Shown here: piece after piece, positions 2,534 through 25,902 of the stretch | Layout: each line of letters begins with the position of its first letter | Numbering within the stretch: position 1 is the stretch's first letter | Origin: Terriglobia bacterium | GTDB lineage: Bacteria; Acidobacteriota; Terriglobia; JAIQFV01 | Length of the DNA stretch: 35,628 nucleotides | NCBI GenBank assembly: GCA_028716525.1 | Contig: JAQUPQ010000041.1 | Coordinates: 1 to 35,628 of the forward strand | Direction of reading: 5' to 3' | The notes under the pieces: generated by a model | The model's database searches: none | The model's input: the letters and a program-made list of their open reading frames with translations, nothing else | Told to the model about the DNA's origin: nothing | Translations under genes and position numbers: made by a program

Positions 2534-2881
2534 TTATTCTTGCGGGTCAACCAATGATAAGATTCGGGCGGTCACTTCTTGCATAATGGACGCAGGAACT
2601 GATCCTGTGCGCTTGGCGTTTCTAACCCGCCAATCAAGGCTTTTGATTTGATCGCAGAGGATCGCGCCCTCTATTTCCATCCCTTGAGGAAGCTCCACCT
2701 CAAACGGATAGCCCTTGATCCGCGATGTGATCGGGCAGACAAGTGCTAACCCAACTCGCTGATTGTAGACCCGAGGTGAAATCACCAGCGCCGGACGATG
2801 GCCAGCTTGTTCACTCCCGGCTTGGGGATTGAAATGAAGCCACACCACATCGCCCCGCTCAGGAGCTCTGGCCGCATCCAT
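2534..2881 (-). CDS. mazF: MazF/PemK/ChpB-family endoribonuclease toxin
   Basis: About 115 residues with the full MazF fold signature: RGDVVWLHFNPQAGSEQAGHRP near the N-terminus, then RPALVISPRVYN, CPITSRIKGYPFEVELP and ILCDQIKSLDWR. These proteins cleave mRNA at short specific sequences when the antitoxin is lost. ATG at 2881 is preferred: GGGAGG lies 7 bases upstream, and the start overlaps the mazE stop as TGATG. A TTG at 2887 would also be in frame. No truncation is visible. Confidence 0.92.
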   Translation of the reverse strand: MDAARAPERGDVVWLHFNPQAGSEQAGHRPALVISPRVYNQRVGLALVCPITSRIKGYPFEVELPQGMEIEGAILCDQIKSLDWRVRNAKRTGSVPASIMQEVTARILSLVDPQE

Positions 2882-3123
2882 CACCAAACCTCCCGACCGC
2901 GAGGTCCGCCCGTATTCACTTCACCATGCAGGTTCTTGTTCGTAACCTTTTGAAGAAGTTCGCTCAGCCGGTACGTTCGCCGCCGTGCAGCCCTAACAAC
3001 CAAATCACCGTCCCGCATGGATAAATCAACTTGCGAGCCGGCTTCAACTCCTGCTTCTTCGGCAAAAGACCGCGGAATCCGCAATCCCAGGCTGTTGCCC
3101 CATCGCTGGATTTTCGTCTGCAT
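2881..3123 (-). CDS. mazE: MazE/AbrB-family antitoxin
   Basis: An 80-residue protein with the AbrB/MazE swapped-hairpin domain: MQTKIQRWGNSLGLRIPRSFAE followed by GSQVDLSMRDGDLVV. The C-terminal tail would bind MazF. ATG at 3123 is preferred over longer in-frame starts because GGAGGTGG lies just upstream and the domain begins right there. Its stop overlaps the mazF start by one base. It is likely autoregulated through the inverted repeat that covers its -10 box. Confidence 0.9.
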   Translation of the reverse strand: MQTKIQRWGNSLGLRIPRSFAEEAGVEAGSQVDLSMRDGDLVVRAARRRTYRLSELLQKVTNKNLHGEVNTGGPRGREVW

Positions 3124-3137
3124 CCACCACCTCCGGA

Positions 3138-3175
3138 TATACATTGAGTATACACACCACCGGTCCGACGGTCTA
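3138..3175 (-). promoter_or_regulatory. mazE promoter with inverted repeat
   Basis: On the minus strand TAGACC (3170-3175) and TATACT (3147-3152) are separated by 17 bases, a plausible sigma-70 pair. An inverted repeat, TATAC-N5-GTATA (3138-3152), covers the -10. That is the expected position for a MazE/MazEF operator. The promoter call is inferred from spacing and match only. Confidence 0.55.
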
Positions 3176-3302
3176 TCCTTTTTGTTCGCATCCGTAAAGC
3201 AGTAGGCCAATCCTTGGTAGGGCTCGGGGATTAAACAGGATCATCTACAAACAGGGGCAGAAGGTCAAGTGCGAGTGAATTCAAACAACCCGCATACTGA
3301 GA

Positions 3303-21615: not shown

Positions 21616-22941
<1,326 letters not shown>

Positions 22942-22949
22942 GATATAGC

Positions 22950-23054
22950 TTTGGTAGCCACGATCCGCCGGCTTTTTGGCGGATCGTGGCCTCTTTCGCG
23001 GCTCATCACACAAACCCATGATCAATCAAAAAACGATTGATCATGGCTACCAAA
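22950..23054. repeat. REPIN-like inverted pair of GTAG-footed hairpins
   Basis: Two hairpins face each other. Copy 1 has the foot TTTGGTAG (22950-22957), then a 12-bp perfect stem (22958-22969 / 22978-22989) with a T-rich 8-base loop. Copy 2, on the other strand, has its stem at 23016-23027 / 23035-23046 with a T-rich 7-base loop and ends in CTACCAAA (23047-23054), the inverted foot. The two stems differ at four positions and all four are compensated in the partner arm. GTAG beside a hairpin, in inverted pairs of ~100 bp, is the layout of REP/BIME/REPIN elements moved by RAYT transposases. No RAYT gene is in the window. Confidence 0.7.
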
Positions 23055-23180
23055 CCAATTTTATGTCCGCGCCCATTGGGCTCAAAAAGACTGCCGAAAC
23101 GGGGCGGCAGAACACAAATCATAAGATTCAATCACCAGCTTGTCCGGGTTCATCTCCAGGATCGGAGGGCATCCACAGCC

Positions 23181-25172
23181 TTAAGTTACGGCCGACACGG
23201 CCTTGGATTTCAGTTCTTTGATCTTGTCGCGCAGTGATGCCGCCTTCTCAAACTCAAATCTCTTGGCGGCGTCTTTCATCTGTTTTTCCAGTTTCTCAAT
23301 GACTTCTCCCAGCTTGTCAGGATCGGCGATCCACGGCTCATCAAACAGATCCGTCTCCACCTCCACATAATCCGCCTTCGCAATCGCAACCAGCGTCATG
23401 TCAATGGGCTTGACGATGGATTCGGGCGTGATGTGATTCTCCTCGTTATAGCGCATTTGCAGTGCCCGCCGCCGATTGGTTTCGCCAATGGCTCTTTCCA
23501 TGGACACCGTCATCACATCGCCGTACAAAATGGTTTTTCCGTGAAGATGACGGGCCGCGCGTCCAATGGTTTGAATGAGCGAGCCCGCCGACCGCAAGAA
23601 TCCCTCCTTATCCGCATCCAAAATCGCCACCAGTGACACTTCCGGTAAATCCAATCCTTCCCGAAGCAGATTGATGCCGATCAAGGCATCAAATTCGCCC
23701 TTACGTAAATCACGCAGGATCTTTATTCGGTCGAGCGTCTCAATATCGGAATGCAAATAGCGGCATCGGACGCCCGTTTCAGTAAGATACTCTGTCAAGT
23801 CCTCGGCCATGCGCTTCGTTAAAGTGGTGACCAGGACGCGCTCCTTCTTTTCAGCGCGCAGTTTAATCTCGTGCATCAGGTCATCGATCTGGCCTTTCAC
23901 CGGCCGCACTTCCACCTCGGGATCGATCAACCCGGTAGGCCGAATCACCTGCTCAATGAACGCTCCGCCGGTCTTTGTCAACTCATAGGGACCGGGTGTG
24001 GCCGAAACGTAGATCACCTGATTGACCCGCGTTTCAAATTCCTCGAAGGTCAACGGTCTGTTATCGAGCGCCGAGGGAAGCCGGAAGCCATATTCAACAA
24101 GCGTGGTCTTCCGGGACCGATCCCCGTGATACATCCCGCGAAGCTGCGGCACGGTTTGGTGGCTTTCATCGATGAACATGAGGGAGTCCCGAGGAAGGTA
24201 ATCCAGCAAGGTGGGCGGAGGCTCCCCCGGCTTGCGACTTGTAAAATGGCGGGAGTAATTTTCGATGCCGTGACAGTATCCAATCTGCTTCATCATCTCG
24301 ACATCAAACAACGTCCGTTGGCGCAGTCGTTGAGCCTCGATGGACTTCCCTTGGTCTTCCAGCTTGGGAATCCAATCTTCCATTTCACCCAGAATTCTCT
24401 CGATGGCGATTTCCAAGGTGGGTCGCGGCATGACGAAATGGGTTCGGGGATAAATGGGCATGCGCTCAAACGTTTCTTTGAACGTCCCCGTCATCGTATC
24501 AACGCGCGTCAACTGTTCAATTTCATCCCCCCAAAGCTCAATGCGCAGCGCATCATCCGAGTAAGTCGTAAAAATCTCAATCACATCACCGCGGACTCGG
24601 AAGCTTCCACGCTTGAAGTCGTTGTCATTGCGCTCGTAGAGGATTTCAACCAGACGATGGATGATGTCGTTTCGAGGAATGCGCTGGCCTTTTTCAAGAA
24701 AGAACATCATGCCGTAATAGGCTTCGGGAGACCCCAAGCCGTAAATGCACGAAACGGATGCCACAATGATGCAGTCCCGCCGTTCAAACAACGATTTCGT
24801 GGCCGCCAGACGCAGCTTGTCGATTTCGTCGTTGATGGTGGCTTCTTTTTCAATGTAAGTATCGCTGGCAGCGATGTAGGCTTCCGGCTGGTAATAATCG
24901 TAATAAGAGACAAAATACTCCACGGCATTATCGGGAAAGAAGGTACGGAATTCGTGGAAGAGCTGGGCGGCCAGCGTTTTGTTGTGAGCCAGCACCAAGG
25001 TCGGGCGATTGACGGTCTCAATTACTTTGGCCATGGTGAAGGTCTTGCCCGATCCGGTGACCCCCAGCAGCACCTGATGTTTTTCTACGTCTTTTAATCC
25101 GCCAACGAGTTGTTCGATGGCGCGAGCCTGATCCCCGCGCGGTTGATAAGGAGTGACAAGTCGAAAATTCAT
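23181..25172 (-). CDS. uvrB: UvrB, excinuclease ABC subunit B
   Basis: The helicase-like damage-verifying subunit of nucleotide excision repair, loaded by UvrA and cut-complexed with UvrC. The 663 residues include Walker A GVTGSGKT (37-44), [14 protein letters not shown] (beta-hairpin region), FIDESHQT (motif II), [22 protein letters not shown] (motif VI), and the C-terminal UVR helix pair [23 protein letters not shown] 25172 is chosen because it lies 4 bases after the menG stop; an earlier in-frame start would overlap menG. It is the last gene of aroB-menG-uvrB. Confidence 0.97.
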
Positions 25173-25176
25173 GGAC

Positions 25177-25902
25177 TTATTTTGTGCCCAGATGCAGGGC
25201 GGCAATGCCGCCGTTCAAGTTGTAGTATTGGACATCTCTAAATCCGACAGCTTCCATCTGCCGCTTCAATTCCTCCTGCGATGGAAAGGCCCCCACCGAA
25301 TCAGGAAGGTAAGCATAGGGCCCCGGGACTCCGCTCAATCGATCACCGATGCGCGGAAGGATTCGCGTGAAATAAAAATGATAGAGCTGGCGGAACACCG
25401 GAGCCTGCGGCCTTGAGAACTCCAGAATGGCCGCGACCCCATCCTTTCGAAGAATTCGAAGCATTTCGCGAAGGCCGGCGTCGTAATCTTCAAAATTTCT
25501 AAAGCCGAATGCGATCGAGACGGCCTCAAACGAACCATCCCGCAGCGGCAATCGTAAGGCATCCGCCTCCGACAACAAACACGTGGGTAGTTGCTTATGA
25601 GCCAACTTCTGTTTCCCCACCACGAGCATGGGATGGCAAAAATCCATGCCGACCACCCGGCCCGCGGTAGCAGCTCGCAACGCCAGCGTCAAGTCTCCGG
25701 TTCCGCACGCCAGATCCACAACCGAGAAATCCCTCCGCCCCAATCGCTCCACGATCTTCTTGACCGTAAAACGCCGCCAGCGTTTGTCGATGTTGAATGA
25801 AAGCAGGTGATTCAGAAAGTCATAGCGCCGCGCGATGGCGCCGAACATGGCGCGCACTTGAGATGCGTTTCGGGCCGAATTTGCACGGGAAGAAATTGGC
25901 AT
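25177..25902 (-). CDS. menG: Demethylmenaquinone methyltransferase (MenG/UbiE)
   Basis: A SAM-dependent methyltransferase that makes the last step to menaquinone (UbiE homologues also act on ubiquinone). Visible features: [28 protein letters not shown] near the N-terminus, the SAM loop [37 protein letters not shown], and [11 protein letters not shown]. About 241 residues, normal length. The start is uncertain: ATG 25902 is preferred; GTG 25920 and ATG 25911 are alternatives, and none has a strong ribosome-binding site. It lies between aroB and uvrB on one transcript. Confidence 0.94.

Follow-up and report, generated by a model that had tools for sequence, protein, structure and literature searches.

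GTAG-tagged REPs are a well-described kind of element (PMC3733652). Compensatory changes were called common in REPINs by Bertels and Rainey (PMC3116915), and for the Escherichia coli transposase TnpA_REP the GTAG motif and the lower stem matter, while swapping the upper stem or the loop leaves activity (PMC8266576). Here we describe a pair of GTAG-footed hairpins between eno and uvrB in a Terriglobia genome. The window, the whole stretch of 35,628 nucleotides that was analysed, corresponds to contig 41 in a draft genome of 4.2 Mb (104 contigs, 96% complete). We consider it very probable that the pair is one REPIN of ~109 bp, made of two inverted GTAG-footed units, that was inserted between the two genes after the split from the sister genus and was moved by a Y1 HUH transposase.

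A first-pass annotation had reported two GTAG-footed hairpins in inverted order within 105 bp (22950-23054) that carry four compensated stem changes, and both the layout and the changes proved real. On the + strand, unit 1 starts with the foot TTTGGTAG (22950-22957, GTAG at 22954-22957), which is common to a genome-wide family, followed by a hairpin (22958-22989) with the 12-bp stem CCACGATCCGCC and the loop GGCTTTTT. The stem is 13 bp if the last foot base is counted as paired, and its 13-nt arms (22957-22969 and 22978-22990) are 100% complementary. A spacer of 26 bases (22990-23015), of the same length in the pairs on contigs C58, C67, C83 and C91, separates the two units. Unit 2 lies on the - strand, with a hairpin at 23016-23046 (12-bp stem CCATGATCAATC, loop GTTTTTT, 12-nt arms 23016-23027 and 23035-23046, 100% complementary) and the foot TTTGGTAG at 23047-23054. 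TTTGGTAGCC is identical in both feet (22950-22959 on the + strand, 23045-23054 on the - strand). Read from the feet, the two stems differ at positions 4, 9, 10 and 11; all four differences are matched in the partner arm and pairing is perfect in both. The limits of the whole REPIN (22948-23056) lie about where homology with other full copies starts and stops, in an all-against-all comparison and in alignment A1, and the paired feet close both hairpins.

When the 109 bases are folded as DNA, either strand forms two hairpins, closed where the feet pair (z = -7.6 for the + strand and -8.4 for the - strand), and none of 200 shuffles is as stable. Together with genome-wide copy counts whose controls are near zero, this rejects chance inverted repeats, a reading for which we found no point in favour and to which we assign next to no probability. 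A known RNA was likewise rejected, the sole match in an Rfam search being a sub-threshold miRNA (E 0.53).

The hairpins begin 8 bases past the stop codon of eno (enolase, 21655-22941, + strand, 79% identity with genomes of the same bacterial family) and face the convergent uvrB (23181-25205, - strand, named from reading its protein sequence). This position, and the listing of the - strand hairpin (23046-23016) as terminator-like, would suit hairpins whose main function is to terminate transcription or to stabilise mRNA 3' ends for both genes, whatever their origin. A canonical intrinsic terminator, that is, a GC-rich hairpin followed immediately by a T-run, is not supported at this locus: the T-runs sit in the loops, the + strand hairpin is not called a terminator, and in the - strand hairpin the stem is rich in AT (GC in 5 of 13 pairs) and the tail, GTTTGTGTGA, is broken. 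The same pair also occurs at many unrelated sites and is missing after eno in both relatives compared below. We therefore regard a mainly terminating or stabilising function as improbable; termination may be a secondary effect, which would leave the family unexplained. Matches to the enolase are spread over many phyla, and an enolase tree of 18 rows gave it no place within a named group. Elsewhere in the window, two adjacent small gene pairs (1907-2415 and 2534-3210, - strand) resemble, from a reading of the sequence alone, toxin-antitoxin modules of the RelE/antitoxin and MazF/AbrB types.

The genome search for further copies proposed in the first-pass annotation was productive. In the 4.2 Mb of the genome, GGTAGCCACGATC is present in 25 exact copies, and allowing one mismatch raises the count to 42 sites, where the reversed control gives 0-1; a covariance model (R1) finds 51 matches, so a short (20-40 bp) palindrome is present in many dispersed copies. 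The two window units match this model with 65.3 bits (unit 1) and 63.4 bits (unit 2). Across the whole draft, TTTGGTAGCCNNGATC with up to two mismatches is found at 107 sites, a count that takes in sister families such as TCTGGTAGCCGGGATG, versus 11 for the reversed pattern. BLAST with a 141-base query recovered full-length relatives on contigs C57, C67, C83 and C91; their identity is only ~72-76%, and the copies are thus old. Homology between the window and the full copies stops cleanly at the feet, which is how a mobile unit of ~109 bp should behave. The units are mainly extragenic, 33 of 37 being clear of ORFs of at least 150 aa and four overlapping one (ORFs called mechanically and uncurated), and GTAG stands directly 5' of the hairpin in both window units and in the family. 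The window pair is thus one member of a dispersed, mostly intergenic, GTAG-tagged REP/REPIN family of roughly 40 units.

Two further observations concern the surroundings of these repeats. CCGCCGGCTTTTTGGCGGA, the 19-base tip of unit 1 (22965-22983), has six further exact sites outside this REP family in the same genome (three in contig C34, at 15706-38158, and one each at C19:54446, C23:19586 and C83:7359), and further near-copies lie in C34. Some copies (L003, L004, L053, L083 and L065) are embedded in longer mosaics that include other palindromes (ATAAGATCGCC..GGCGACAGA and CCGGCATAAAGAACTGCCGG).

In two other genomes of the bacterial family (G001 and G002), eno at 79% identity is followed by ~250-300 bases in which no GTAG hairpins were seen. 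By eye, a uvrB-like tail lies beyond this gap in both, while a script search recognised the uvrB tail only in the window's copy. The junction being empty in both relatives, the pair looks inserted, presumably after this lineage separated from the sister genus. Matches to model R1, which was built from 13 units, were counted at E <= 0.001, with hairpins also counted when read antisense: 51 (this genome), 63 and 36 in three genomes of this bacterial family, and 127, 17 and 94 in three from a second family within the class. Fourteen other genomes of the class gave no match at this threshold, and in an exact-motif scan of 299 class genomes more than two copies were found only in G000 (this genome), G052, G076 and G081. 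Tandem arrays of GTAG-footed units, with ~140-bp and 49-bp periods, occur in G001 (C55:2007-2828) and G052 (L195, C15:1437-1596).

The covariance model delimits seven pairs, all convergent with feet outward, in which the stems are 26 bases apart in five cases and 25 and 21 bases apart in the others. At five loci (on contigs C7, C13, C18, C49 and C58) a unit of the window's family is paired with another unit type, CCACCCCGATG, so that units are combined as mosaics, comparable to the E. coli y-z BIMEs (PMC8266576). The REPIN/BIME identity given to the window pair in the first-pass annotation is thus supported by its many copies, fixed-spacing inverted pairs and GTAG feet, by an insertion that the relatives lack and by the presence of Y1 genes.

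The same annotation had taken the four stem differences as sequence drift under a fold kept by selection, and had called this unusual within one pair. In our reading of the full-pair alignment, the units appear to fall into two types with distinct roles: type A, with the upper stem AACC and a T-rich loop, to which window unit 2 belongs, and its partner type B, usually CCCC- or CCGC-tipped and CGCC-tipped in the window. The differences at stem positions 9 and 10 are explained by the A/B difference (A:T versus C:G and G:C, transversions), and the unit 1 tip, CGCC-GGCTTTTT-GGCG, is found again with little change in units of G002 (L248); about half of the compensation would thus be inherited unlikeness and not drift within the pair. 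Compared with other A units, positions 4 and 11 show transitions from C:G to T:A, that at position 11 being also present in the C57 copy (AATT/GATT). The claim of drift therefore divides: positions 9 and 10 are best read as inherited unit-type differences, and positions 4 and 11 look like later compensated transitions, one of them common to another copy. The claim of unusualness did not survive, since unlike upper stems within a pair are the rule across the family and compensatory changes had already been called common in REPINs.

Covariation across aligned copies, another check suggested at first pass, gave a clear signal. Among 13 intact units, 15 cells changed on both sides compared with 3.7 +/- 1.4 in shuffles, and the signal was mostly lost on sliding partners. 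A larger set of 72 distinct units from six genomes gave 157 two-sided cells against 43.5 +/- 6.7 in shuffles, again lost when partners were slid, and a covariation score of 0.497 against 0.165 when shuffled; copies are related, and these cells are not independent events. In the same set 98.3% of cells are paired versus 79.3% when shuffled, figures inflated by units selected partly for intact stems and by an alignment (A3) fitted to structure. Stem pairs 1, 2 and 5 (C:G, C:G and G:C) are invariant. In the lower stem of 31 units of this genome there are three two-sided and eight one-sided changes, so one-sided decay also occurs; under independence 0.06 two-sided paired changes would be expected, a rough value because the 5' arm had served in part to find the units. 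The stem covariation is strong but not unusual for the family, in which asymmetric pairs are the rule.

The compensated changes could have arisen by templated correction or copying between arms (quasi-palindrome correction, or gene conversion between hairpins), with no selection on the fold. The upper stem and loop do vary as blocks, the unit 1 tip occurs at sites outside the family, and the G002 units bear nearly the same tip. Stepwise change, on the other hand, predicts G-T wobble intermediates, which exist as seven T-G cells at pair 4, and every double change seen in the lower stem in this genome is a transition. Templated correction is on balance possible but doubtful, and we prefer a fold kept through compensated change, acting on units that were partly unlike from the start.

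The search for a Y1/RAYT gene was successful in part. Ten Y1_Tnp genes in the genome exceed the Pfam cut-off, yet none of the seven proteins tested passes the RAYT cut-off of 80 bits: six score best on the IS200 model (five pass its cut-off), and one, encoded on contig C6, scores best on the RAYT model with 65.8 bits. Only one Y1 gene, a tnpA at C83:7541-7966, lies close to a REPIN of the window's family, with 155 bp between the REPIN and the Y1 domain; the tnpA reaches 119 bits on the IS200 model and 20.9 bits on the RAYT model (cut-off 80). A REPtron would be a true RAYT with the same REP on either side; in this draft, 96% complete, the C83 gene is the only one adjacent to the family, and its better fit is to the IS200 model. 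Hairpins of the form CCACGGGC...GCCCGTGG stand directly on both sides of it and look like the gene's own ends, and the closest homologue found in other repeat-rich genomes has 30% identity. We did not accept it as the cognate gene, given its own flanking hairpins and its poor conservation elsewhere. None of the Y1 genes of G052 that were checked is flanked by units of the window's family.

These results bear on the idea that a lone IS200-type TnpA, for example the C83 gene, and not a RAYT, moves the pair in trans as a miniature element. The adjacency at C83, the model scores (five of seven proteins pass the IS200 cut-off and none that for RAYT) and several other Y1 genes flanked by GTAG-footed hairpins of other families speak for it; the C83 gene, however, comes with its own hairpins, a single adjacency can be chance where there are 10 genes and about 25 sites, and other repeat-rich genomes have no close homologue. 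We rate it as unlikely. More speculative, and less likely still, is a class-wide superfamily of asymmetric REPINs whose signal is the foot and lower stem only (GGTAGCC..GATC), with lone IS200-type TnpA proteins in place of RAYTs moving them in trans and with tips exchanged as blocks between families.

Several lone IS200-type Y1 genes in this genome (L041, L042, L043, L044, L045 and L048, on C37, C1, C19, C5 and C64) are each flanked by their own hairpin family, some with GTAGCC feet, a REPtron-like landscape in one genome. A RAYT-like gene (L049, C6:54445-54780) is flanked by GGGGACAGACACC repeats and resembles TIR-flanked transposases with GGGGWSAS motifs (PMC3733652).

The first-pass annotation had named as a contrary outcome a genome with no other copies and no RAYT, and hairpins with only a terminator-like role; what we found is other copies and Y1 genes, none of them proven to be the cognate RAYT. 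Our favoured explanation remains a REPIN mobilised by a Y1 transposase. A candidate Y1 HUH enzyme (TnpA_REP or IS200-like) would read each unit as a single-stranded hairpin, with the foot GGTAGCC and the lower stem CC..GATC as the predicted recognition signal, and would cut and move the pair. In the upper stem and loop pairing may suffice, so that these parts would be free to differ between units and copies. The constant and free positions of the window's family fit the swap results for E. coli TnpA_REP (PMC8266576).

Compared with described systems, the window pair resembles the REPINs of Pseudomonas fluorescens SBW25 (Bertels and Rainey 2011, PMC3116915) in being an inverted, extragenic REP doublet with conserved ends, a fixed distance and a fold kept with compensatory changes. 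It differs in that either unit by itself forms a strong 12-bp hairpin, there are fewer copies and the cognate RAYT is only putative. With the GTAG-tagged REP families of Di Nocera et al. 2013 (PMC3733652) it shares GTAG at one end, a stem of 6-13 bp, several families per genome, inverted pairs and a frequent position downstream of genes; the lower stem here is CC(A/G)NGATC, and the likeness to the 24 families of that study is one of general features. Like the E. coli y-z BIMEs (PMC8266576), it combines two dissimilar REP units that have the GTAG foot in common and a variable upper stem and loop, but it has no conserved bulge, its stems being perfect as in group 3 REPs. Hairpin elements derived from IS200/IS605 depend, as is proposed here, on recognition of single-stranded hairpins by Y1 transposases, although the window element has no internal transposase gene and has a GTAG foot. 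The general principle was already known from Pseudomonas and E. coli; what is added is a well-defined GTAG-tagged REPIN family, common to two bacterial families of one class and with unusually clear covariation, whose alignment tells positions that stay constant, in the foot and in parts of the lower stem, from those that vary freely in the upper stem and loop, and so yields a testable prediction of the transposase signal.
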